Shown here: positions 35,596 through 49,216 of the stretch, in pieces
Numbering within the stretch: the first letter of the stretch is position 1
Layout: each line of letters opens with the position of its first letter
Origin: Bacillota bacterium
GTDB lineage: Bacteria; Bacillota; Sulfobacillia; DUSP01; JBFMCS01
Direction of reading: 5' to 3'
Assembly (NCBI GenBank): GCA_040754315.1
Contig: JBFMCS010000048.1
Coordinates: 1-49,216, forward strand
Length of the DNA stretch: 49,216 nucleotides
Translations under genes and position numbers: made by a program
The notes under the pieces: generated by a model
What the model was told of the DNA's origin: nothing
Database searches by the model: none
What the model saw: only the letters and a program-made list of their open reading frames with translations

Positions 35596-36789
35596 CTAGG
35601 CCTCGCTCAGCGCCTTCTTGAATTCCTCGGTCAGCGCAGGGACCACATGGAAGAGGTCTCCCACAATGCCGTAGGTACATACCTTGAAGATGGGGGCATC
35701 CGGGTTCTTATTGATGGCCACTATGATGTCGGAGGATTGCATCCCGGCAAGGTGCTGGATGGCCCCGGAGATCCCCACAGCTATGTACACCTTGGGAGAC
35801 ACAGTCTTCCCCGTCTGGCCCACCTGGTGGGAGTAGGGTATCCAGCCCGCGTCCACAGCTGAGCGGGATGCCCCGACGGCACCCCCTAGCACCTTTGCCA
35901 GGCCCTCGATCAGCGCGAAGTTCTTGGGAGCGCAAATGCCCCGGCCACCGGAAACGATGATGTCCGCATCCTCCAGGTTGACGGTCTCACCCATCTCCTC
36001 GATGAACTCCAGCACCTGGACTCTTGACCGCAGATCCCCTCGCTTCACCTCGCGTATCAGGGCGGCACGGCCAGGCTGCCGCTCCATCTTCTTCATCACC
36101 TTGGGCCTGACAGTGGCCATCTGGGGCTTCCTGTAGCGGCAGAGGATGGTGGCCATGATGTTGCCGCCGAAGGCTGGGCGCGTCTGCTTGAGAAGCCTGG
36201 ACTCAGGATCGATATCCAACCCCGTGCAGTCCGCGGTGAGGCCCGTCTGAAGGCGGGCAGCTATGCGGGGCGCCAGGCTCCTGCCTGTGGATGTAGCGCC
36301 GAAGAGCACTATCTCGGGCTTCTGGGTCTTAACCAGGTCAACCATGACGGAGGTGTAGGGGTCATCAGTGAACTTCTCCAGTGCCTGGTCGTCCACCACG
36401 TACACCACGTCGGCGCCGTACTCGGCCAGATCCTTCGCCCGGTCCCGTATGTTATGGCCTAGGAGCACCGCGCACAGGGGATGGCCCAGCTCGTCCGCCA
36501 GCCGGCGGCCCACTCCCAAGAGCTCGAAGGCCACCCCGGCCACCCTGCCACCCCTCTGCTCACCGAAGACCCAAACCCCCTGGTGCTCTTCAGAGGGGCC
36601 CTCCTCCTTCTTGCCCTTGGTTATCTCGATGGCCTCGAGGGCACACTCTGGCACACACGCCCCGCAGAGGTTGCAGGCCTCCGTAATGGAGGCAGTGCCT
36701 TCCTTCATCTCTATGGCACCGAAGGGGCATGCGGCGAGACACGCCTCACAGCCCGTGCACAGTTCCTCATGTACCTTTATGTCAGCCAT
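35596..36789 (-). CDS. etfA: EtfA with N-terminal ferredoxin domain, copy 1
   Basis: 397 residues. The N-terminal 60 residues carry two 4Fe-4S motifs, [12 protein letters not shown] and [12 protein letters not shown], followed by the electron transfer flavoprotein alpha domain with a FAD-binding C-terminus: [40 protein letters not shown], then [20 protein letters not shown] and NKNPDAPIF. Ferredoxin-fused EtfA subunits occur with anaerobic acyl-CoA dehydrogenases; the clusters may link to a further redox partner. This is the last gene of the beta-oxidation cluster. Confidence 0.95.
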
Positions 36790-36810: not shown

Positions 36811-37599
36811 TCAGACTACCTTGGCGTCGCGGAGCCGCGCCACCAGGGCCTTGGTCATGTCTGCCACTTCGCCCTCGAGGATCTCGCCCTTGCTTCTCAC
36901 CTCAGGGGTGAAGACCCTGATCACCCAGGTGGGAGACCCATCGAGCCCAGTCTTGCCGCTGTCGTTGATGCCCAGGTCAACCGCGGTCCACACGGTGATC
37001 TCCGTCCTCTTGGCCCTCATGATCCCCTTCAGCGAGGGCAGGCGGGGCTCGTTGATCTCCTTCACCACGGTTATGAGAAGGGGAATGGTGGTCTTGATGA
37101 CCTCGGTGCCGCCCTCCACCATGCGCTCGAGGACTATGTCCGAGCCCTCGATCTCCCGGATCTTCTTGATGTAGGTGACATGGGGGATATCCAGGTTCTC
37201 GGCAATGCCAGGACCCACCTGAGCGGTGTCCCCGTCCACTGCCTGCTTGCCGCAGAGGATCATGTCGAAGTCCCCCAGCTTCCTTATTCCCGACGCCAGG
37301 GTGAAGGAGGTTGCCAGGGTGTCCGAGCCCGCGAAGGCCCTGTCGCTAAGGAGCACCGCCTGGTCACATCCCATGGCCACGGCCTCCTTGAGTGCCTCCT
37401 TTACCTGGGGAGGCCCCATGCTGATTACCGTGACGGTGCCTCCATACTTCTCCTTCAGCCGGATGCCTTCCTCAATGGCATAGGCATCGAAGGGATTGAT
37501 GATGCTGGGCACTCCCTCCCGGACGAGGGTCTTGGTTTCAGGGTCGATCTTCACCTCAGTGGTTTCGGGGACCTGTTTCATGCAGACCACAATGTCCAA
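36811..37599 (-). CDS. etfB: EtfB, electron transfer flavoprotein beta subunit, copy 1
   Basis: 262 residues starting MDIVVCMKQVPETTEVKIDP, with the AMP/FAD-binding segments INPFDAYAIEEGIRLKEKYG, DQAVLLSDRAFAGSDTLATS and a CGKQAVDGDTAQVGPGIAEN block. A TTG at 37599 with GGGAGG upstream is the start. It pairs with the etfA 21 bases downstream and probably accepts electrons from the acyl-CoA dehydrogenase seven bases upstream. Confidence 0.95.
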   Translation of the reverse strand: MDIVVCMKQVPETTEVKIDPETKTLVREGVPSIINPFDAYAIEEGIRLKEKYGGTVTVISMGPPQVKEALKEAVAMGCDQAVLLSDRAFAGSDTLATSFTLASGIRKLGDFDMILCGKQAVDGDTAQVGPGIAENLDIPHVTYIKKIREIEGSDIVLERMVEGGTEVIKTTIPLLITVVKEINEPRLPSLKGIMRAKRTEITVWTAVDLGINDSGKTGLDGSPTWVIRVFTPEVRSKGEILEGEVADMTKALVARLRDAKVV

Positions 37600-37606
37600 A
37601 CTGCTC

Positions 37607-38776
37607 TTACCTCCCCTTTTGACCCCTGGATCTGGACTCCTTGACCAGTTCCTGAGCTATCACGTTCCTCTGGATCTGGTTTGTGCCTTCATATATTTGG
37701 GTTATCTTGGCGTCCCGCATGATCTTCTCCATTGGATAGTCTCGCATGTAGCCGTAGCCGCCAAACACCTGGAGGGCGTCGGTGGCGACCCTCATGGCCA
37801 CATCCGAGGCGAAGAGCTTGGCCATGGCGGATTCCTTGGAATAGGACTTACACCCGGAGTCTATCATCCTGGCGACGCTATATACCAGGGCGCGGGCCGC
37901 TTCCACCTGCGTGGCCATGTCTGCCAGCATGTGGCCTACAGCCTGGAAACTGGATATGGGCTGGCCAAACTGCTTTCTGACCGTGGCGTATTCCACCGCC
38001 CGGTCCAAGGCGCCCTGGGCAACCCCCACGGCCTGAGCCCCAACCCCGGGCCGTGCCTTGTCCAGGGTCTTCATGGCAACTATGAAGCCCATGCCCTCTT
38101 TGCCCAGGAGGTTCTCCCGGGGGACCCGGCAGTCCTGAAATGCCATCTCCCGGGTGGCGGAGGCCCTGATGCCCATCTTCTTCTCTTTCTTGCCGAAGGT
38201 GAAGCCCGGCGTCCCCTTCTCCACAATGAAGGCGCTGGCCCCGCGGGGCCCCTTCTTGGGATCCGTCAGGGCGATAACCGTGTAGACCTCGGCCTCCCCG
38301 CCATTGGTTATCCACTGCTTCGTGCCGTTCAAGACGTAATCGTCCCCATCCCTGGCGGCCACGGTCTGGATGCCCCCGGCATCGCTGCCCGCCTCAGGTT
38401 CGGTCAAGGCGAAGGCGGCCAGCCTCTGGCCGGTGGCCAAGCCCGGAAGGTACTTCTGCTTCTGCTCATCAGAGCCAGCGATGAGAATAGGGGCTGAGCC
38501 CAGCCATGAAGCGGCGTAGGACACAGCCACGGCGGAACAGGCCCAGCTGATCTCCTCCATCACCAGGCACAGATCAAAGACGCCGCCGCCCATACCCCCG
38601 TACTCCTCAGGCATGGAGACGGCGAACAGGTCACTAGAGGCCATCTCCCTCAGGAGGTCCCAGGGGAATTCCTCTCTTTCGTCAAGCTCGGCGGCCTTCT
38701 CCAGGACCTTCTCCCTGGCTACTCGCCGGGCCAGGTCGCGTACCATCTCCTGCTCTTCAGTGAGAGAGTAATCCAA
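37607..38776 (-). CDS. Acyl-CoA dehydrogenase, copy 1
   Basis: 389 residues from a TTG at 38776 behind GGAGGAGGGATATC; the longer frame to 38818 lacks support. Family landmarks: DYSLTEEQEMVRDLARRVAR, a FAD/substrate region with FALTEPEAGSDAGGIQT and YVLNGTKQWITNGGEAE, and C-terminal DALQVFGGYGYMRDYPMEKI followed by IYEGTNQIQRN, whose Glu is the catalytic base of the short-chain class. Likely substrate butyryl- or acyl-CoA; which one cannot be told. A 107-base gap to the next gene upstream contains the palindrome AGGGATATCCCT at 38832-38843. Confidence 0.95.
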   Translation of the reverse strand: MDYSLTEEQEMVRDLARRVAREKVLEKAAELDEREEFPWDLLREMASSDLFAVSMPEEYGGMGGGVFDLCLVMEEISWACSAVAVSYAASWLGSAPILIAGSDEQKQKYLPGLATGQRLAAFALTEPEAGSDAGGIQTVAARDGDDYVLNGTKQWITNGGEAEVYTVIALTDPKKGPRGASAFIVEKGTPGFTFGKKEKKMGIRASATREMAFQDCRVPRENLLGKEGMGFIVAMKTLDKARPGVGAQAVGVAQGALDRAVEYATVRKQFGQPISSFQAVGHMLADMATQVEAARALVYSVARMIDSGCKSYSKESAMAKLFASDVAMRVATDALQVFGGYGYMRDYPMEKIMRDAKITQIYEGTNQIQRNVIAQELVKESRSRGQKGR

Positions 38777-38883
38777 GATATCCCTCCTCCACCAGCTCGT
38801 GGGGGCTTCTCCCCCCAAGGCGCGGCAGCGCAGGGATATCCCTACTGGGCTCCCTTGTGCCCCGGTAAGCCATCTCTAGTAGT

Positions 38884-39993
38884 TCAACGACCCGGCCGGG
38901 ATTCCTTCCCCACCTGGTGAAAGGCCCTTAGTACCGCCATGGGGTCCGCCAGGACGAAGTAGTCGCATATCCCCCTTATGTTACTGTTCTCCCCGGGGGA
39001 CACGGCCACGATTACCCTGGACTCCTCCACGGCCCCATTGTGCCCGGGGGACCCCTCGATGCCGAAGGCCATGTACAGGTCAGGGCACACGGTCTTCCCC
39101 CCGGCTGTGTCCACCAGCCACTCCTGCGGGGCCAAGCCCTTTGCCACCGCCTCCCTGGAGGCGCCAGGGGCACCGCCCAGCAAGGCTGCGGTTTCCTCGA
39201 GGATGGCGAAGCCCTCCTGGGGGAGCCCCTCACCCCCGGACAGCACTACCTGGGCCTCGGCAAGGGGTGGCCGAGCGTCCCAAGGTTGCCTGTCCAGCAC
39301 CGTGAAGGGCCATGGGAAGCCATCCATCCCGGGAAGCCCTGAGAGCGGTGGGTTGGGGCCCCTGGGATCCAGCGTCAAAAAGAGGCAAGGCTCGAAGGGT
39401 GCCCGGATCCGCACCCAGTACCTGGACCCGAAGAGGGGCCTCGTCACCTCGCAGGCCTCCTCGCCGTAGGAGAGTTCAACTTGCCTGGCCCCACTGAGGC
39501 AGGGCAAGCCGGCTAAGGCCGCCACCTGGGGCATGAGCCACAAGGCCTCCCCCACTGCCACTGCCGCAAAGAGCCTGGGCGAGTTGTCCCTGACGGCCAA
39601 AGCCAAGGCCTCCGCGGGGTTTCCCGAGCGGGGGATACGCAGGACCTCGCTGGCACCCGACCCGGCAAGGGCGCTCTCTTCAAAGCCTGGCAGGGCCACT
39701 ACTATAACCCTCGCCCCCACCTCGCGGGCCATGTCCCCAAAGAGCCTCACGGCCCCAGCGGAGAGCCCCTCCTGGGCCAGGACCCAGAAGTCGCCCGGCC
39801 CCCGCGCGGCCATGTTCTCCCCGGGCATCACCAAGGCCGATACCGGGCAGGCCGGGACACAGAGCCCGCACCCGTTACATATCTCGGCTACTACAGCCCT
39901 CCCCTGGATCACATCTATGGCCAGGAAGGGGCAGGCGGGCACGCATGCCCCGCAGCCGTCACAGCGCTCCCTCACTACCAGCGTCTCGGACAC
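38884..39993 (-). CDS. EtfA-like protein with ferredoxin domain, copy 2, divergent
   Basis: 369 residues. N-terminal CDGCGACVPACP and CNGCGLCVPACP motifs, followed by an EtfA body. Compared with copy 1 it is more divergent: the FAD-binding QTGKTV segment reads DTAGGKTVCPDLYMAFGIEG and the IQH stretch is replaced by HNG. It still ends like EtfA (SNIRGICDYFVLADPMAVLR). It abuts etfB2 with no gap, so the two form a second Etf pair. Function as an electron acceptor is likely, but the altered cofactor region makes it less sure. Confidence 0.88.
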   Translation of the reverse strand: MSETLVVRERCDGCGACVPACPFLAIDVIQGRAVVAEICNGCGLCVPACPVSALVMPGENMAARGPGDFWVLAQEGLSAGAVRLFGDMAREVGARVIVVALPGFEESALAGSGASEVLRIPRSGNPAEALALAVRDNSPRLFAAVAVGEALWLMPQVAALAGLPCLSGARQVELSYGEEACEVTRPLFGSRYWVRIRAPFEPCLFLTLDPRGPNPPLSGLPGMDGFPWPFTVLDRQPWDARPPLAEAQVVLSGGEGLPQEGFAILEETAALLGGAPGASREAVAKGLAPQEWLVDTAGGKTVCPDLYMAFGIEGSPGHNGAVEESRVIVAVSPGENSNIRGICDYFVLADPMAVLRAFHQVGKESRPGR

Positions 39994-40740
39994 CTAGAGC
40001 ACCTGCCTTTGCCTGAGAAGCACCCACAGGCTCCGTGCTGTCTCCTCAGGGGTCCCCGGAGGGAGGGCCTCCAGGAGCCTTGCCTTGGACTTCAGACTGC
40101 CGTAACCCTTCACCCTCAGCGGGGTCCCGGGCACCTCTCGGGAGATGACCTTCACTGGGGCCCTCATGGCCTGCATCACCCGGACCGGTGCCGGGTGCCT
40201 GGGTTCAGCCGCCCTGTGACTCACCCCCAGCGCCAGGGGGAGGGAGGCCAGGAACACAACCTTCTCCCGGCCGCTTGCCGCCTCCACCCTGAGGCCGTCA
40301 CCCTCAGCGCTCACTGACATCACCCCGCCGATGAAGGGATAGCCCAGGCACGCCGCGGTCATGGGACCAACCGCCCCCCTGCCCATGTCCGGTGAGACTG
40401 CACCGAAGAGGAGCACGTCCGGACCCTCCTCCCGGAGGGCGCCAGCAAGCAATCTGGCCACCACCAGGGGGTCGTGTTCCTGTTCCTGCGTAAGGAGCGC
40501 GCATACCCTGGTCAACCTAGAGGCACCCAGGGCCAGGGCTAGGCGGAGCACCCTTTCATCCTCAGGGGACCCGGCACAAACCACCGTCACCTCGCCCAGC
40601 CCCAGTCCCAGTTCCAGCGCAGAACGGTCCGCTTGGGAAATCCCCCTCTCTGCCCCGGACACATCCACTTGGCCCCTGGAAGCCGAGAAGAAGGTTCCCT
40701 CAGGGGAGGGCGCCACCCTCCAAGAGACACATACCCTCAT
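39994..40740 (-). CDS. EtfB-like protein, copy 2
   Basis: 248 residues. Starts MRVCVSWRVAPSPEGTFFSA; EtfB-like core segments include LGLGLGEVTVVCAGSPEDER, DVLLFGAVSPDMGRGAVGPM and SLPLALGVSHRAAEPRHPAP, but weaker than in copy 1, and the N-terminal KQVP motif is changed to WRVAP. Together with the divergent EtfA it follows the second acyl-CoA dehydrogenase directly and probably serves it. Start ATG is one base beyond that gene's stop. Confidence 0.82.
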   Translation of the reverse strand: MRVCVSWRVAPSPEGTFFSASRGQVDVSGAERGISQADRSALELGLGLGEVTVVCAGSPEDERVLRLALALGASRLTRVCALLTQEQEHDPLVVARLLAGALREEGPDVLLFGAVSPDMGRGAVGPMTAACLGYPFIGGVMSVSAEGDGLRVEAASGREKVVFLASLPLALGVSHRAAEPRHPAPVRVMQAMRAPVKVISREVPGTPLRVKGYGSLKSKARLLEALPPGTPEETARSLWVLLRQRQVL

Positions 40741-40741
40741 T

Positions 40742-41893
40742 TCACTTCCCCGCCTTTAGCAGATCCCTGGCTATTACCATCCTCTGGATCTCGTTGGTGC
40801 CCTCGTAGATGGGGAGGATCCTGGCATCCCGGTACATCCTCTCCAGGCTGTATTCCTTCATGTAGCCCGTGCCCCCGTGGATCTGGAGCGCCTTGTCGAT
40901 GACCTTGTTCGCCATCTCGCTGGCAAAGAGCTTCACCATGGCAGCCTCCCGGGACACCTTCTGCCCGGCGTCCACTAAAGACGCCGCGTGGTATGTCATC
41001 AGCCGGGCAGCATGGATCTGCACAGCCATGTCCGCCAGCATCCACTGGATGGCCTGGAACTCGGCTATGGGTTTGCCGAACTGCACCCGTTGCCTGGCCC
41101 ACTGGATGCTCATCTCCAGGGCCTTCTGGGCGGCCCCCAGCGCACCTGCGGCCAGCCCTATCCTGCCGAAGTCCAGGGCCTTCATGGCTGTGAGGAAGCC
41201 AGAGCCCACCTCCCCCAGGACGTTCTCCCGGGGCACCTCGCACTCGTTGAACACCAGCTCCGCCGTATGGGAGCCCCTGAGGCCCATCTTCCTGTCGACG
41301 GTGCCCACCTGGAAACCTGGGAAGGCCTTCTCTACGATAAAGGCGCTTACTCCCCCCCTGGGCCCCAGGGACTTGTCTGTGACGGCGAAGACAACGACGA
41401 CATCAGCTATGTCCCCGTTGGTTATCCATATCTTGGACCCGTTCAGGTAGTAGCGGTCCCCCTCCCGGCGCGCCGATGTCTCAATGGCAGCCGCGTCGGA
41501 CCCAGCGTTGGGCTCGGTGAGGGCAAAGGCCCCGATCTCTTCCCCGCGGCACATGGGCTTGAGGTACCGGGTCTTTTGTTCCTCGGTGCCGTCCAGGAAG
41601 ATGGAGCAGGCGGCTATGCCTGTGTGGGCCCCGATGAGGTTGCCGTAGGCCGAATTCACTGCCGCCAGTTCCTCCATGACCACGCAGTAGCCGAGTTCCC
41701 CTACCCCCGCGCCATCGTACTCCTCGGGAAAGGGAAGGCCAAAGAAACCCATCTGGGCCATTTCCCGGACTATCTCCCCGGGGATCTCGTCCTCCTCCTC
41801 CACCCACTGGACCAGGGGCTCCAGCCGTTTCTTCACATAGTCCCTCACCATGCGCCTGAGCATCTCTACCTCTTCAGGCAGTGAGAAGTCCAC
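40742..41893 (-). CDS. Acyl-CoA dehydrogenase, copy 2
   Basis: 383 residues. MDFSLPEEVEMLRRMVRDYV start, FALTEPNAGSDAAAIETSAR, YYLNGSKIWITNGDIADVVV, QIHGGTGYMKEYSLERMYRD and IYEGTNEIQRMVIARDL with the catalytic Glu. It differs enough from copy 1 (especially in the N-terminal helix) to suggest a distinct substrate or partner Etf. It follows the enoyl-CoA hydratase by 12 bases. Confidence 0.95.
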   Translation of the reverse strand: MDFSLPEEVEMLRRMVRDYVKKRLEPLVQWVEEEDEIPGEIVREMAQMGFFGLPFPEEYDGAGVGELGYCVVMEELAAVNSAYGNLIGAHTGIAACSIFLDGTEEQKTRYLKPMCRGEEIGAFALTEPNAGSDAAAIETSARREGDRYYLNGSKIWITNGDIADVVVVFAVTDKSLGPRGGVSAFIVEKAFPGFQVGTVDRKMGLRGSHTAELVFNECEVPRENVLGEVGSGFLTAMKALDFGRIGLAAGALGAAQKALEMSIQWARQRVQFGKPIAEFQAIQWMLADMAVQIHAARLMTYHAASLVDAGQKVSREAAMVKLFASEMANKVIDKALQIHGGTGYMKEYSLERMYRDARILPIYEGTNEIQRMVIARDLLKAGK

Positions 41894-41905: not shown

Positions 41906-42685
41906 CTATTCCCCTGTGAACTGAGGCTTTCGCTTCTCCAGGAAGGCGTTTATGCCCTCGCGAGCGTCCCTGCTCTGGAACACCTTGACAAAGGCCTCCG
42001 TCTCCAGCCTGAGTCCCTCGGGGAGGGAGGCCCCGAGGCCATCCCAGAGCACAGCCTTTATGGCTGCCACAGCCCTGGGGGCCTGCATGGCCAGCTTCCT
42101 GGCAAGGTTCTTCGCGTGGGCCATGAGCTCGTTGTCAGGTACCACCTTGTTCACCAGCCCAAACCTCAGGGCCTCCGCGGCCTTGATCATATCTCCCGTC
42201 AGGAGCATCTCCATGGCCCTGGTCTTCCCCACCAGCCTGGAAAGCCGCTGGGTGCCCCCCCAACCCGGGATGATCCCCAAGTTTATCTCCGGCTGCCCCA
42301 TGCGGGAGCCCTCCGCAGCCACCCTCACGTCACAGGCCATGGCCATCTCCAGCCCGCCCCCTAGGCAGACACCGTTGATGGCCGCCACCACGGGCTTGGG
42401 CATCGTCTCTATGGTATCGAACACCTCTTTGCCCTTCTGGATAAGCTGCTGGCCCTCTTCGGGCCCCATCTCCAGGAACTGCCCGAGGTCTGCTCCTGCC
42501 ACGAAGCAGTACTGGCCAGCACCGGTGATTATCACAGCCTTCACCGAGGGCTCCCGCAGGACCTCCCCCAGGGCATGGCCCAGCTCCTCAATGGCCTGGC
42601 CGTTCAGGGCGTTTACCGGCGGCCTGTCTATGGTTATCACCTCAAGTGGGCTCTCCCTGCTCACCTTCAACGTTGAATACTCCAC
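41906..42685 (-). CDS. Enoyl-CoA hydratase/crotonase family
   Basis: 259 residues. Crotonase landmarks: GAGQYCFVAGADLGQFLEMG, oxyanion-hole/catalytic region NGVCLGGGLEMAMACDVRVA with a Glu, and GQPEINLGIIPGWGGTQRLS with the second Glu. Both active-site glutamates are present, so hydratase activity is likely. It would hydrate the enoyl-CoA made by the acyl-CoA dehydrogenases, giving the 3-hydroxyacyl-CoA for the dehydrogenase encoded next. Confidence 0.94.
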   Translation of the reverse strand: MEYSTLKVSRESPLEVITIDRPPVNALNGQAIEELGHALGEVLREPSVKAVIITGAGQYCFVAGADLGQFLEMGPEEGQQLIQKGKEVFDTIETMPKPVVAAINGVCLGGGLEMAMACDVRVAAEGSRMGQPEINLGIIPGWGGTQRLSRLVGKTRAMEMLLTGDMIKAAEALRFGLVNKVVPDNELMAHAKNLARKLAMQAPRAVAAIKAVLWDGLGASLPEGLRLETEAFVKVFQSRDAREGINAFLEKRKPQFTGE

Positions 42686-42699
42686 AGGTCATCCCCCTC

Positions 42700-43008
42700 T
42701 CAGTACTCGAAGAAGCCACGGCCGGTCTTCCTGCCCAGGGAAGACCGGGACACAAGGTCCCTGAGAACCTGGGGCACCCGGAAGGCCTCCCCATGGGACT
42801 CCTCCAGGGCATTCATCCTCTCCAGCGCCACATCGAGACCTACACCGTCGGCCCATGCCAGCGGGCCCTCCTTGTACCCGGCGCCCGCCAGCATGGCCAG
42901 GTCAATGTCCCTGGCGCTGGCCACGCCCTCCTCCAGGCACCGGCAGGCCTCGGCCAGGCCTGCGTAGCGAAACCGGTCCACCAGCAATGCCTCCATGGCC
43001 TCCTCCAC
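42700..43008 (-). CDS. Free-standing 3-hydroxyacyl-CoA dehydrogenase C-terminal domain
   Basis: 102 residues with no NAD-binding Rossmann part. It resembles the C-terminal (helical, 3HCDH_C) domain alone: VDRFRYAGLAEACRCLEEGV, GYKEGPLAWADGVGLDVALE and LGRKTGRGFFEY. It lies 16 bases after the full-length dehydrogenase (43025-43876), so it is either a partner subunit or a remnant of a duplicated gene. The frame is intact and codon use matches its neighbours, favouring a real protein. Function unknown. Confidence 0.8.
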   Translation of the reverse strand: MEEAMEALLVDRFRYAGLAEACRCLEEGVASARDIDLAMLAGAGYKEGPLAWADGVGLDVALERMNALEESHGEAFRVPQVLRDLVSRSSLGRKTGRGFFEY

Positions 43009-43024
43009 CTTGACCCCTCCTATC

Positions 43025-43876
43025 TCAGCCCGTGTACTTGAAGAACCCCTCCCCTGTCTTGGCCCCCAGCTTGCCCTCTTTCACCAGGTTCACCAGGGTC
43101 TCACTGGGGGAGAACCGCTCACCGTAGGCCCTTTCAAGCGTCTCGGCGACGTCCAGTACCACGTCAAGCCCTAGGGTATCTGAAAGGGTGAAAGGCCCCA
43201 TGGGAACGCCGCCCTTGGCCTTGATGGCCCCGTCGACCTCCTCCCTTGGGACACTCGTCTCCTCCTGGAACCTCAGGGCCTGCGCCATGGCAGCAAGGAG
43301 TATGCGGTTGACCAGGAACCCCGCGCACTCCTTGACCCTCACGGGTATCTTCCTGAGTCCCTCCGCGAATTCCACCAGGGTATCCATGGTCTCCTCAGAG
43401 GTATGCTCACCAGATATGACCTCCACCAGTTTCATGAAGCTGGCAGGGTAGAAGAAGTGGAGCCCGCCTACCCTCTGGGGCCTGGACGTAGCCTCGGCCA
43501 TCTTGGTGATGCTCAGGGCTGAGGTGTTGGACGCCAGGAGCGCAGTGGGAGGGGTCGCCTGGTCCAGGTCCTTGAATACCGCCATCTTGAGTTCCATCTT
43601 CTCCGGCACAGCCTCAATCACCAGGTCCACAGCGGCAAAATCCCCGTAGGAGGTGGTGGGGATGATCAGGGACATCTTCTGGTCCATCTCTGAGGAGGTC
43701 ATCCTCCCCTTGGCGATCCTTCGCTGGTATATCCCCCTGATCCGGTCCAGCCCCCTGTCTAGCATCTCCTGGTTGACATCCTTCAGGACCACAGGCAGCC
43801 CGCTCCAGGAAATCACCTGGGCGATCTCGGCGCCCATGGCCCCCGCGCCCACGACTCCTGCCTTGAAGATGTACAT
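43025..43876 (-). CDS. hbd: 3-hydroxyacyl-CoA (3-hydroxybutyryl-CoA) dehydrogenase
   Basis: 283 residues. Rossmann motif AGVVGAGAMGAEIAQVISWS at the N-terminus; catalytic His in VGGLHFFYPASFMKLVEVIS; and the C-terminal domain with ECAGFLVNRILLAAMAQALR, PMGPFTLSDTLGLDVVLDVA and the ending LGAKTGEGFFKY. It oxidises 3-hydroxyacyl-CoA with NAD. The hbd name is used for the family; substrate chain length is not fixed by the sequence. Confidence 0.95.
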   Translation of the reverse strand: MYIFKAGVVGAGAMGAEIAQVISWSGLPVVLKDVNQEMLDRGLDRIRGIYQRRIAKGRMTSSEMDQKMSLIIPTTSYGDFAAVDLVIEAVPEKMELKMAVFKDLDQATPPTALLASNTSALSITKMAEATSRPQRVGGLHFFYPASFMKLVEVISGEHTSEETMDTLVEFAEGLRKIPVRVKECAGFLVNRILLAAMAQALRFQEETSVPREEVDGAIKAKGGVPMGPFTLSDTLGLDVVLDVAETLERAYGERFSPSETLVNLVKEGKLGAKTGEGFFKYTG

Positions 43877-43889
43877 GGGTCCCCCTCCC

Positions 43890-45071
43890 TCACTCTCTCC
43901 TCTCCAGTATCACACTGCCCCCCATGCCACCCCCAACGCACAGGGTGGCCAGGCCGTAGCGGGCCCCCCTTCGCGCCATCTCGTGGGCTAGGGTGGTCAG
44001 GAGCCTCAGCCCTGTGGCGCCTATGGGGTGGCCCAGGGCAATGCCCCCTCCGTTGACATTGATCCTGTCAACGTCAAAGCCCATCTCTCTCTGGCATGCG
44101 ATAACCTGGGCGGCGAAGGCCTCGTTGATCTCCATGAGGTCTATGTCCTCCAGCTTGAGCCCTGCCTTCTCCAGTGCCTTCCGGGTGGAGTGGACCGGGC
44201 CGATGCCCATGATGGATGGGTCACACCCTGCGTAGGCCCAGGAACGAAGGTAGGCCATGGGCTTGATGTCCAGCCTGGACGCCGCCTCTTCACTCGCCAC
44301 CACGCAGGCGGAGGCGGCATCGTTGATGGGGCAGGAGTTGCCCGCGGTAACGGTGCCGTCCTTCTTGAATACGGGCTCCGCCAGGGCAAGCCTCTCCAGG
44401 GAAAGGCCCGCCACTGGGGATTCGTCCTGCTTGACTACCTCTGCCGGCCCCCGGCGCTTGGGCACCTCCACCGGGACGATCTCGTCCTTGAACCTCCCCA
44501 TCCGGGCAGCCGTGAACGCCTTCCGGTGGCTCTCCACAGCCCAGGTATCCTGCTCCTCCCGGGTAATCCCGTACCTCTCAGCCAGGTTTTCCGCGGTAAG
44601 CCCCATTATCAGGCCTGTGTAGGGGTCAGTGAGACCCGTCCAGAGGCTGTCCTCGAAGGCCGCGTGGCGGAGCCTCAGGCCCCACCTGGCCCCGTAAACC
44701 TCGTAGGGGGCATTGCTCATGTTCTCGGCCCCTCCCGCCAAGATCACCTCCCCGTCGCCGGCCCTGATGGCCTGGGCAGCACTGGTTACCGCCTGGAGCC
44801 CTCCGGCACAGTTGCGCTGCACGCTGAAGGCGGGTATCTCGTAAGGGAAGGACGCAAAGAGGCTCACCTGCCTTCCAAGGTTTGCCTCCTTCGTGGGGTG
44901 GCCCCCGCTGGAGAATACCACCTCATCCAGGTCTCGGGGCTCGATGCCAACCCGCTGGAGGGCCTCCCTGGCCACGACCACGCCCAGCTGCGTGCTGTTC
45001 ATCTCCCTGAAGGCACCACCGAAGTTGCCCACAGGGGTCCTGCAGAAACCCGCCAAGACAATGGGTTTCAC
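43890..45071 (-). CDS. Acetyl-CoA acetyltransferase/3-ketoacyl-CoA thiolase
   Basis: 393 residues. Nucleophilic Cys in FSVQRNCAGGLQAVTSAAQA, substrate region INVNGGGIALGHPIGATGLR with the catalytic His, and the second Cys in GLATLCVGGGMGGSVILERR. It cleaves 3-ketoacyl-CoA, or in reverse condenses acetyl-CoA. The ATG at 45071 overlaps the DUF2889 stop by four bases, so it is coupled to that gene. Confidence 0.95.
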   Translation of the reverse strand: MKPIVLAGFCRTPVGNFGGAFREMNSTQLGVVVAREALQRVGIEPRDLDEVVFSSGGHPTKEANLGRQVSLFASFPYEIPAFSVQRNCAGGLQAVTSAAQAIRAGDGEVILAGGAENMSNAPYEVYGARWGLRLRHAAFEDSLWTGLTDPYTGLIMGLTAENLAERYGITREEQDTWAVESHRKAFTAARMGRFKDEIVPVEVPKRRGPAEVVKQDESPVAGLSLERLALAEPVFKKDGTVTAGNSCPINDAASACVVASEEAASRLDIKPMAYLRSWAYAGCDPSIMGIGPVHSTRKALEKAGLKLEDIDLMEINEAFAAQVIACQREMGFDVDRINVNGGGIALGHPIGATGLRLLTTLAHEMARRGARYGLATLCVGGGMGGSVILERRE

Positions 45072-45589
45072 TCCTCACTCCCTCCTTTCACTCCTGGCGG
45101 GGACCCGTCTCCCCGCGCGTAGACCACACAGGTGCCCGGCAAGAGTGCCCGTCCAAGTTCCATGAAGTGCCTTGAGACCCGCTCATCGACCTGGGCCGGG
45201 GAAAGTCCCTGCCCTTGAAGGGCCCGGGTGAGGGTCTCCCTCTCCTTCCTGGCCCAGGCTGGAAGGAAGGCCCTCAAGGCATCCAGGCTGAGTTCCGCCA
45301 GGTGGGTGCAGCCTTCCTCACCGCCCAGGAGGCGGAACACCTGGCGGTAGCACCCGGGCTCCACCCTCAGGCCCACCAGGCTTGACACCTGTGAGGCCGC
45401 GCGCCGGCACAGGGAGCCGTAGGGCACCTTCCCCATGCAGGCATAGGCAGAAAGCACCTCCCGGGTCTTTGAGTGGATGACCAGCTGGACATCCATGACG
45501 TGGTCCTCGTCCTCCAGGTGGCCGTTGAGGCTGAACTCCCCCTCCCGGACCTCCCGGGCAGTGATCACCTTTGAGCGGCAAAGAAGCAC
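45068..45589 (-). CDS. DUF2889-family protein
   Basis: 173 residues. Matches the pattern of this uncharacterised family: FSLNGHLEDEDHVMDVQLVI, a Cys-containing VPYGSLCRRAASQVSSLVGL, LLGGEEGCTHLAELSLDALR, and an ending with GTCVVYARG. The GTG at 45589 has GGGGGG upstream. It is the first gene of the beta-oxidation cluster and lies directly behind the sigma-54 promoter at 45621-45637. Its conserved Cys, His and acidic residues could bind a metal, but no function is assigned. Confidence 0.85.
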   Translation of the reverse strand: MLLCRSKVITAREVREGEFSLNGHLEDEDHVMDVQLVIHSKTREVLSAYACMGKVPYGSLCRRAASQVSSLVGLRVEPGCYRQVFRLLGGEEGCTHLAELSLDALRAFLPAWARKERETLTRALQGQGLSPAQVDERVSRHFMELGRALLPGTCVVYARGDGSPPGVKGGSEE

Positions 45590-45620
45590 CCGGACACCCC
45601 CCTTAGGTTGCCAGAAGGTT

Positions 45621-45637
45621 ATGCAAGAGTTGTGCCT
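45621..45637 (-). promoter_or_regulatory. Sigma-54 (-24/-12) promoter of the beta-oxidation cluster
   Basis: On the minus strand AGGCAC (-24 element, 45637-45632), five bases, TTGCAT (-12 element, 45626-45621). This fits TGGCAC-N5-TTGCA with one mismatch at the first base, and the GG and GC pair have the required spacing. It lies about 31 bases before the DUF2889 start. The neighbouring sigma-54 activator gene and the two palindromes upstream support it. Confidence 0.75.
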
Positions 45638-45697
45638 TGTGACACCAGGCGCAATTCCTGGCCAGGGCCATGGGGTTCAATGAGGGGGGAATACGTA

Positions 45698-45737
45698 TGT
45701 CCGGAAGAGCGGACAGTGCTGTCCGCAATGCCGGACA
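45698..45737 (-). promoter_or_regulatory. Two activator sites, TGTCCG-N6-CGGACA
   Basis: Perfect 6+6 inverted repeats at 45698-45715 and 45720-45737, with start points 22 bp apart, about two helical turns. They lie 60-100 bases upstream of the -24/-12 promoter and between the activator gene and its presumed target, so they are the probable upstream activating sequences. The spacer differs between the two (GAAGAG and CAATGC). Confidence 0.75.
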
Positions 45738-45760
45738 CCGGGATGGGGGCAGGGCTCTCT

Positions 45761-47869
45761 TCAGGTCTTCAGGCTCAGTCTCTGCATCTTCTGGTACAGG
45801 GTTGAGCGACTCACGCCCAGGTGCCTGGCGGCCAGGCTCTTGTTGCCGCCTGAGGCCTCAAGGGCCCTCACTATGGCATCCCTCTCCGCGGCCTCCACCG
45901 AGGCCCGGTAGCCTGCCTGCTCACCGCCAGTGACCGGCGTCGCGCTCACCAGGTAGGCCGGCAGGTGGTCCCTCTCTATCATGTAGGCCGCGCCCAGGTT
46001 CACCGCCCTCTCGATGGCGTTCTCCAGCTCCCTGACGTTCCCCGGCCAATCGTGGGCCTGGAGCACGGAGAGGGCATCGGGGGAAACCCCCCTGATCTCC
46101 ATTCCCATTTGCCGGTTCAGCTTCTCAATGAAGTGGTTGGCCAGGGGGAGTATATCCTCCTTCCTGTGTCTCAAGGGCAGGATAGTGAGGGCGACCACGT
46201 TGAGGCGGTAGTAGAGGTCCTCCCGGAACGCCTGCTGGGCAACGAGCTGGCCAAGGTCCCTGTTGGAGGCGGCTATTACCCTGACGTCAACCCGGACTAC
46301 CTCTGTGCCCCCGACCCTCTCGAACTCCCGGTCCTCCAGTACCCTGAGGATCTTGGCCTGCAGGTTTGGGCTCATGTCCCCAACCTCGTCCAGGAAGAGG
46401 GTTCCCCCGTCGGCCAGCTCGAACTTGCCGGGCTTACCGCCCTTCCTGGCACCAGTGAAGGCGCCCTCGGCGTATCCGAAGAACTCCGACTCAAGGAGGT
46501 CCGGAGGTATGGCAGCGCAGTTTACTTTTATGAAGGGTCCTAGCCTCCTGGGGCTTGCGTTGTGAAGCGCCTGGGCGAAGAGTTCCTTGCCTGTGCCGGT
46601 CTCCCCCTGGAGGAGCACTGTGGAGTTGCCCATGGCGGCCCGGCGGGCCTCCTCCTTGAGCCGGGCCATTTCGTGACTGGCCGAGACAATGTGGTCCAGG
46701 GTGTACCTGGCCCGGGTGAACCGGGAGAGTTCTTCCTGGTAGTAGGCAACCCGGGACTCTAGAGTCTCGATGCGCCGGGCGATCTCCCTGATCTCCTCCA
46801 GGCCCCGGAAGGTGATCTTGCCTACCGCACCTGACACCCTGCCCTCCTCAATGATGGGAAGGCAGGAGACCAGGACCTTGCGACCCCTGACTACTTGCAC
46901 TTGGGCCAGCTCCTGGGTCCCCGTGCGGGCCACCATGGGGAGGCAGGTCCCGTCCATCACACTGGACACGGGCTGGCCCACCAGGGCCTCCTGGCAGAGC
47001 CCGGTAAAGTCCGCCATGGCCTTGTTGGCCATGGTGATGGCACCTTTACCATCCACCACCACTATCCCTTCGTAGGCCAGGGCCAGGATGTTATCCAGGG
47101 TCTTGTGAAGGCCGGACACGCTCTCTAGGCGCCTGGCCACAGCCTCGTATTCCGTGAGGTCCTGGAATATGGTGGTGGCCCCGGTTATGATCCCGCCCAC
47201 GCAGATGGGGGTGCTGTTGGACACCACGGTGACTGACCTGAGGGACTGCTTCCGGCCAACCCTGGCCTCCCCTGACGCCAGCACCTCGGGGAGGTCGCTC
47301 TCGGGGAGCACCGACTGGATTGGCCTTCCCAGGGCCTCCCCAGCATTGAGGCCCAGGCATCGCTCTGCGGCAGGGTTGAGAATCGTCATGGTACACTGCT
47401 GGTCGATGGCGAATATGCCGTTGTGCATAGAGTCCAGGACGGTGCCTAGCTCCCCCAGGAGGAGGTCCTTCTGGGAGAGGAGTCCCCGGATGACATCGGC
47501 CTTGGTGAGCATGCCAACGATACGGCCATCCCCCGTAGTCACCACGGCCTGGCCTACCTCGGTGGTCTTGACCTTCTGGGCCACGGTCTCGAAGGACGTG
47601 TTCTGGTCCACCGTGATTACCCCGGTCTTCATGAAGTTCCCCACGCCCCCGTCAAGGTTGCCTGTCTCCAAGAGGCCCTGGTAGAGGCGGGAGCGAGTGA
47701 AAATGCCAAGGATCCTGGCGTCATCATCCACCACAGGCGCGGCGTCAAGCCCTGTCGCCTGGAAGAGCGCCAGGGCGTCTCTCATAGTGTCCCCGGGCTG
47801 GAGCAGGGCCACCTTCTGGGACATGATCTCCTTGACCAGCAAAGGCCATCCCCCCAGAAAGAAGTTCAT
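45761..47869 (-). CDS. Sigma-54-dependent activator with CBS pair and PAS domains
   Basis: About 702 residues. The N-terminal CBS pair (about residues 12-140) shows VKEIMSQKVALLQPGDTMRD and VITVDQNTSFETVAQKV; next come PAS-like regions (about 140-370; GIFAIDQQCTMTILNPAAER and GIVVVDGKGAITMANKA). The AAA+ domain has Walker A GETGTGKE, the sigma-54-contacting GAFTGA loop, and DGGTLFLDEVGDM. The C-terminal Fis-type helix-turn-helix is NKSLAARHLGVSRSTLYQKM. CBS pairs often bind adenylates and PAS domains small ligands, so it probably senses energy or acyl-CoA state. The start is uncertain: ATG 47869 lacks a good ribosome site, while TTG 47842 follows GGGGGGA and would begin LLVKEIM, closer to the CBS start. 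Confidence 0.93.
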   Translation of the reverse strand: MNFFLGGWPLLVKEIMSQKVALLQPGDTMRDALALFQATGLDAAPVVDDDARILGIFTRSRLYQGLLETGNLDGGVGNFMKTGVITVDQNTSFETVAQKVKTTEVGQAVVTTGDGRIVGMLTKADVIRGLLSQKDLLLGELGTVLDSMHNGIFAIDQQCTMTILNPAAERCLGLNAGEALGRPIQSVLPESDLPEVLASGEARVGRKQSLRSVTVVSNSTPICVGGIITGATTIFQDLTEYEAVARRLESVSGLHKTLDNILALAYEGIVVVDGKGAITMANKAMADFTGLCQEALVGQPVSSVMDGTCLPMVARTGTQELAQVQVVRGRKVLVSCLPIIEEGRVSGAVGKITFRGLEEIREIARRIETLESRVAYYQEELSRFTRARYTLDHIVSASHEMARLKEEARRAAMGNSTVLLQGETGTGKELFAQALHNASPRRLGPFIKVNCAAIPPDLLESEFFGYAEGAFTGARKGGKPGKFELADGGTLFLDEVGDMSPNLQAKILRVLEDREFERVGGTEVVRVDVRVIAASNRDLGQLVAQQAFREDLYYRLNVVALTILPLRHRKEDILPLANHFIEKLNRQMGMEIRGVSPDALSVLQAHDWPGNVRELENAIERAVNLGAAYMIERDHLPAYLVSATPVTGGEQAGYRASVEAAERDAIVRALEASGGNKSLAARHLGVSRSTLYQKMQRLSLKT

Positions 47870-49066: not shown

Positions 49067-49095
49067 GTGAAGGCTCCCCTGAATGAATTCAGGGG
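49067..49095 (-). mobile_element. Right-end hairpin of an IS200/IS605-type element
   Basis: CCCCTGAA-TGAA-TTCAGGGG (49076-49095) is a perfect 8-bp stem with a 4-base loop, overlapping the end of tnpB and followed on the minus strand by AGCCTTCAC. IS200/IS605 ends are subterminal hairpins like this, recognised by TnpA. In TnpB systems the guide RNA ends here, and bases just outside act as its guide; the candidate guide on the minus strand runs down from 49066. Confidence 0.6.
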
Positions 49096-49216
49096 CTTCT
49101 AGGGCAAAGGCCCAGGGCTTGCCTTCCCAAACCCAAAATGTTTAGCGCGGCATTGTGGTCACGGCCTAAAACCATACCGCAACACGGACAACTGAAAACC
49201 CTCTCCGACAACGGCA
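49089..49216 (-). CDS. tnpB: TnpB (IS200/IS605 OrfB) C-terminal fragment, cut by window edge
   Basis: 41 codons plus stop, open to the window edge. The text contains PLSERVFSCPCCGMVLGRDH, with part of the zinc-finger cysteines, and NAALNILGLGRQALG, with the D-H-N-A-A-x-N motif that carries the last RuvC catalytic Asp. TnpB proteins are RNA-guided nucleases related to Cas12. Only the C-terminal end is here; completeness and activity cannot be judged. Confidence 0.88.
   Translation of the reverse strand, partial: PLSERVFSCPCCGMVLGRDHNAALNILGLGRQALGLCPRSP

Follow-up and report, generated by a model that had tools for sequence, protein, structure and literature searches.

A predicted sigma-54 enhancer and promoter between an activator gene and an eleven-gene fatty-acid breakdown operon in a Bacillota bacterium

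What switches on the fatty-acid breakdown genes that follow an activator gene in this Bacillota contig? The 171-bp intergenic region between them was originally predicted to be a complete sigma-54 control region, and we followed up this prediction in the window (the whole stretch of DNA that was analysed, 49,216 nucleotides), in the 2.92-Mb source genome, and in related genomes (Table 1). The control region very probably provides the enhancer and the promoter through which the adjacent activator switches on an eleven-gene fatty-acid breakdown operon, forming a dedicated sigma-54 regulon of this one operon, as judged from sequence patterns and their conservation.

Table 1. Positions of the genes and of the predicted control elements in the window.
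Feature	Coordinates	Strand	Remarks
Enhancer-binding protein, CBS-CBS-PAS-PAS-AAA+(GAFTGA)-HTH_8	45761..47842	-	domain search, homologue alignment
Predicted activator site, promoter-distal, TGTCCGCAATGCCGGACA	45720..45737	.	centre ~ -118 from predicted start
Predicted activator site, promoter-proximal, TGTCCGGAAGAGCGGACA	45698..45715	.	centre ~ -96 from predicted start
Sigma-54 -24/-12 element, AGGCACAACTCTTGCAT (AGGCACAACTCTTGCA)	45621..45637	-	AGGCAC-AACTC-TTGCAT; sequence and pattern search
Predicted transcription start	45611	-	position rule: 12 bases past the C in the -12 GC
DUF2889 protein	45068..45589	-	first operon gene
Thiolase (acetyl-CoA acyltransferase)	43890..45071	-
3-Hydroxyacyl-CoA dehydrogenase	43025..43876	-
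Stand-alone 3-hydroxyacyl-CoA dehydrogenase C-terminal domain (3HCDH)	42700..43008	-	102 aa
Enoyl-CoA hydratase	41906..42685	-
Acyl-CoA dehydrogenase 1	40742..41893	-
Divergent electron-transfer flavoprotein (ETF) beta-like subunit	39994..40740	-	weak ETF beta
Divergent ETF alpha-like subunit	38884..39993	-	two 4Fe-4S motifs
Acyl-CoA dehydrogenase 2	37607..38818	-
ETF beta (canonical)	36811..37599	-
ETF alpha	35596..36789	-	N-terminal 4Fe-4S motifs; likely last operon gene
Apparent C-terminus of an IS605-type TnpB, CPCCGMVLGRDHNAALNIL	49095..49214	-	contig end

Promoter element and tandem palindromes

The elements named in the original prediction can be read directly from the sequence. The -24/-12 element lies on the operon strand, with exactly 31 bases between it and the GTG start codon at 45589, as had been claimed. 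It has the conserved GG and GC 10 bases apart (GG-N10-GC) in a setting close to TGGCAC-N5-TTGCA, on the coding strand and upstream of a gene, as is expected of a sigma-54 promoter; the first base of its -24 element is A instead of the usual T of TGGCAC, which counts against it. No sigma-70-like promoter was found in the control region. Farther upstream there are indeed two TGTCCG-N6-CGGACA palindromes, both perfect and 22 bp apart from start to start (about two helical turns). The model was said to fall if the genome lacked rpoN, but one rpoN gene is present (Sigma54_DBD, E 5.6e-58).

A search for TGTCCG-N6-CGGACA through the whole genome, which had been proposed as a check, returned no perfect copy besides the pair at 45698-45737 (copies with one mismatch number six, all elsewhere in the genome), and dinucleotide shuffling of the 171-bp intergenic region, repeated 200,000 times, produced no perfect palindrome. 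The looser pattern TGTCC-N8-GGACA occurs seven times in all in the genome, compared to 11 for a reversed-pattern control; since none of its five single copies outside the locus has a strong -24/-12 element nearby, we claim no second target in this genome. For the promoter, GGCAC-N5-TTGCW has 22 matches in the genome versus six for the reversed control, and the promoter pattern appears on the operon strand in 132 of the 200,000 shuffles of the intergenic region. By itself, a -24/-12 match is no rarity in a genome; the weight is carried by the combination of elements.

About 22 strong Sigma54_activat proteins are encoded in the genome. Several of the other -24/-12 matches in the source genome (G000, loci L010-L031) are found upstream of long reading frames that neighbor further activator genes (L011, L015, L016, L019, L028, and L030 are examples), a pattern that suggests a broad sigma-54 network.

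The activator and its candidate input domains

The neighboring gene had been described as encoding a GAFTGA-containing activator with CBS and PAS sensor domains, and the domain search agrees, giving two of each, followed by Sigma54_activat (PF00158, E 1.6e-69), the lid, and HTH_8 (PF02954, E 4.5e-15); the GAFTGA motif is present in the sequence. An AAA+ Sigma54_activat domain with GAFTGA together with a Fis-type C-terminal HTH places the protein among the NtrC/NifA-type enhancer-binding proteins. Dyad sites of such proteins are expected ~80-250 bp from the promoter or start, where the two palindromes lie, and these are kept beside the orthologues (see below). Translation probably starts at TTG 47842 (giving 693 aa) and not at the longest-ORF start, since the homologues begin with MLVK or MLVR at this point; GGGGGG precedes the codon.

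We propose that activator dimers would bind the two palindromes via the Fis-type HTH, at positions ~96 and ~118 bp upstream of the start and on the same helix face. A signal received through the CBS and PAS domains would lead to formation of the AAA+ ring; the DNA would then loop, and the GAFTGA loop would remodel the sigma-54 polymerase at the -24/-12 element. The eleven-gene operon, from DUF2889 and thiolase through the second ETF pair, would be transcribed from ~45611.

Which domain receives the signal can be narrowed down by comparing the activator proteins. In an alignment of six of them, all retain the PAS domain adjacent to the AAA+ domain; G025 and G044 have lost the first PAS domain, and G044 has a truncated second CBS repeat. 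Because the AAA+-proximal PAS domain is kept throughout, while the first PAS domain and the second CBS repeat are not, it is the most plausible candidate for an indispensable input, and the CBS pair may provide a modulating one. The second CBS repeat has the T-x-x-D pattern (GMLTKADVI), and the first repeat is without that aspartate; in known CBS pairs, T-x-x-D contacts the ribose of adenine nucleotides. With CBS and PAS domains present, the input may be acyl-CoA or the energy state, as originally supposed. A bolder version is that the activator is a CBS nucleotide-sensing one-component regulator that ties anaerobic beta-oxidation directly to the adenylate energy charge, and that it defines an unnamed family in several Bacillota lineages, controlling an acyl-CoA ligase-DUF2889-beta-oxidation regulon; we put this forward tentatively and regard it as rather doubtful.

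The operon and its counterparts in related genomes

The eleven genes are all on the minus strand, run from 45589 to 35596 with gaps of at most 65 bp, and are likely to be co-transcribed. The promoter was predicted to precede a beta-oxidation cluster: the cluster is there, but its first gene encodes a DUF2889 protein, not a beta-oxidation enzyme. The DUF2889 gene comes directly after one for an acyl-CoA ligase in six further genomes (G002, G012, G013, G025, G056, and G044, the last with a degenerate ligase; loci with this adjacency are L162, L167, L168 in G044, L189, L190, and L191), and this position suggests a role for DUF2889 in acyl-CoA metabolism. The operon in the window is missing an acyl-CoA ligase, and the source genome's own ligase gene lies elsewhere. 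We considered that gene as a further target and rejected it, as it has no such sites; fatty-acid activation and oxidation are therefore not under unified control in the source genome. Within the operon, a divergent ETF pair (38884-40740) precedes acyl-CoA dehydrogenase 2 and the canonical Fe-S ETF pair, which gives the operon two electron-transfer sets. The stand-alone C-terminal domain that follows the full dehydrogenase is found at the same place in G002, G013, G028, G046, and G058 (59-66% identity).

Full-length orthologues of the activator were identified in four genomes from two other genera (52-61% identity): G002, which belongs to the same order as the source (61%), and G058, G028, and G046, which belong to the same class and to one genus (52-53%). 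All four adjoin a homologous beta-oxidation operon. In G002, the layout is activator, sites, promoter, acyl-CoA ligase, DUF2889, thiolase, dehydrogenase, small C-domain, hydratase, acyl-CoA dehydrogenase, and ETF pair, that is, the order of the window with the ligase added in front (with identities reaching 76%). In G058, G028, and G046, activator and operon are divergent, with the sites between them, and the operon opens with acyl-CoA dehydrogenase, after which come the ETF pair, ligase, and thiolase. Each of the four genomes has two TGTCC-N8-GGACA sequences that carry no more than one mismatch, are spaced by 19-22 bp, and are followed by a -24/-12 element. When each region was shuffled 3,000 times, no such site pair appeared, and none was present in 42 control regions beside the other -24/-12 matches of the source genome. 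The perfect tandem is found in two of 154 genomes of the class (the source and G058, at the orthologous place), and its reversed control in none.

A weaker layout, again followed by a -24/-12 element, precedes the acyl-CoA ligase-DUF2889 genes next to the shorter CBS/PAS relatives in G044 (one perfect site and a neighbor with two mismatches) and G025 (two sites with two mismatches each). At the G044 locus (L168), the acyl-CoA ligase gene is degenerate, and the control region (site and -24/-12 element) and DUF2889 remain. In two Bacilli (loci L052 and L053), a CBS/PAS relative precedes acyl-CoA genes with textbook -24/-12 elements (TGGCACAATAATTGCA and TGGCACGGTTATTGCA) but no tandem TGTCC-N8-GGACA pair, so the tandem motif is lineage-specific. 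L052 has a TGTCC-N7-GGACA repeat, which might just as well act as the activator gene's terminator.

G013 offers the converse case. It has rpoN and a homologous operon (ligase, DUF2889, and thiolase through ETF), and we found no full-length activator orthologue, tandem sites, or -24/-12 element there; this assembly is estimated to be 88% complete, so that a gap could hide the activator, an explanation that does not extend to the missing sites. The model of an activator acting through tandem sites on a sigma-54 promoter is thus supported, as the layout is kept beside orthologues and homologous operons in four genomes and is absent in G013, which is without the orthologue.

The same control logic could also serve a synthetic operon (making butyryl-CoA or acyl-CoA from acetyl-CoA) or a bidirectional one, like CrbR and the crt-hbd-thl-bcd-etf genes of Clostridium, since the same enzyme set catalyses both directions. 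Nie et al. (2019; PMC6615313) predict the sigma-54 activator CrbR for butyrate synthesis genes, and the operon in the window, being without an acyl-CoA ligase, would suit such a direction. We nonetheless consider it unlikely: the ligase is inside the operon in G002, G058, G028, and G046 and is the first gene after the promoter in G025, and its place within the operon in relatives indicates fatty-acid activation and breakdown. It is even less probable that the palindromes are operators of another regulator that shares the region, for example a TetR-type fatty-acid repressor. Perfect short palindromes are typical of repressor operators too, but these sites accompany the activator gene from genome to genome, whichever the gene order, and are missing from G013, which has the operon but no orthologue; their -96/-118 position and tandem spacing fit an enhancer instead of a promoter-blocking operator, and TGT-N10-12-ACA is a common site class for activators with a Fis-type HTH. 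Least probable of all, the inverted repeats, which directly follow the activator stop codon, can pair into one long hairpin, and lie in a stretch that folds at -31 kcal/mol, would be an RNA 3' end structure of the activator transcript with no role as DNA sites, a terminator reading that is largely refuted by G058, G028, and G046, where the sites are upstream of the divergent activator and an end structure makes no sense, and that also meets no T-run, no terminator-like match on the activator-transcript strand, and a fold z-score of only -1.5.

Comparison with known systems

The preferred reading, a sigma-54 switch dedicated to one fatty-acid breakdown operon, has several relatives among described systems. 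The best-scoring NCBIfam model for the regulator is the proline reductase activator PrdR (NF041552), which covers the PAS-AAA+-HTH part; the score of 513 bits is below the equivalog cut-off of 795, and PrdR has other target genes. Against the AtoC equivalog (NF008469), it scores 351 bits, with a cut-off of 714. The named full-length relatives that we found are distant (38-39% identity). Our literature search found no description of this regulator or its sites, and the regulator-operon pairing appears to be unnamed.

Surveys provide the wider setting. Nie et al. (2019; PMC6615313) defined 39 sigma-54 activator groups in Clostridiales; many groups have TGT-N10-12-ACA sites, most have one target operon beside the activator gene, CrbR is assigned to the butyryl-CoA operon, and CBS-containing activators are mentioned but beta-oxidation is not. 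According to a 2025 survey (PMC12316311), genome-wide predicted sigma-54 targets in Clostridia and Bacilli are enriched in beta-oxidation enzymes, namely acyl-CoA dehydrogenases and 3-hydroxyacyl-CoA dehydrogenases; the activator and sites of this locus are not described in its accessible part. Cells of Syntrophomonas wolfei showed a PAS/sigma-54 regulator only when grown on butyrate (PMC4324140).

Among the closest parallels are AtoC and CrbR. AtoC of Escherichia coli, which has been characterised as activating short-chain fatty-acid catabolism with sigma-54, binds two 20-bp inverted sites upstream of the atoDAEB operon (PMC3118216), but it is a two-component response regulator, whereas the activator here lacks a receiver domain and carries CBS and PAS domains. 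CrbR, as described by Nie et al. (PMC6615313), is likewise a sigma-54 activator of an operon with thiolase, hydroxyacyl-CoA dehydrogenase, hydratase, acyl-CoA dehydrogenase, and ETF genes, with multiple upstream sites that are TGT...ACA inverted repeats. It differs, in a comparison by description only, in serving butyrate synthesis in Clostridium, with genes that include crt, maoC, and bcd, whereas the target here includes DUF2889 and, in relatives, the acyl-CoA ligase too. Given the AtoC and CrbR precedents, sigma-54 control of acyl-CoA metabolism is of a known kind; this type of switch is already well known, and the understanding of sigma-54 control itself is unchanged. What this locus adds to these systems is a clean pairing of regulator, sites, and operon for fatty-acid oxidation, with a conserved predicted binding motif that should help in annotating related genomes, and a tie between the uncharacterised DUF2889 family and acyl-CoA metabolism.
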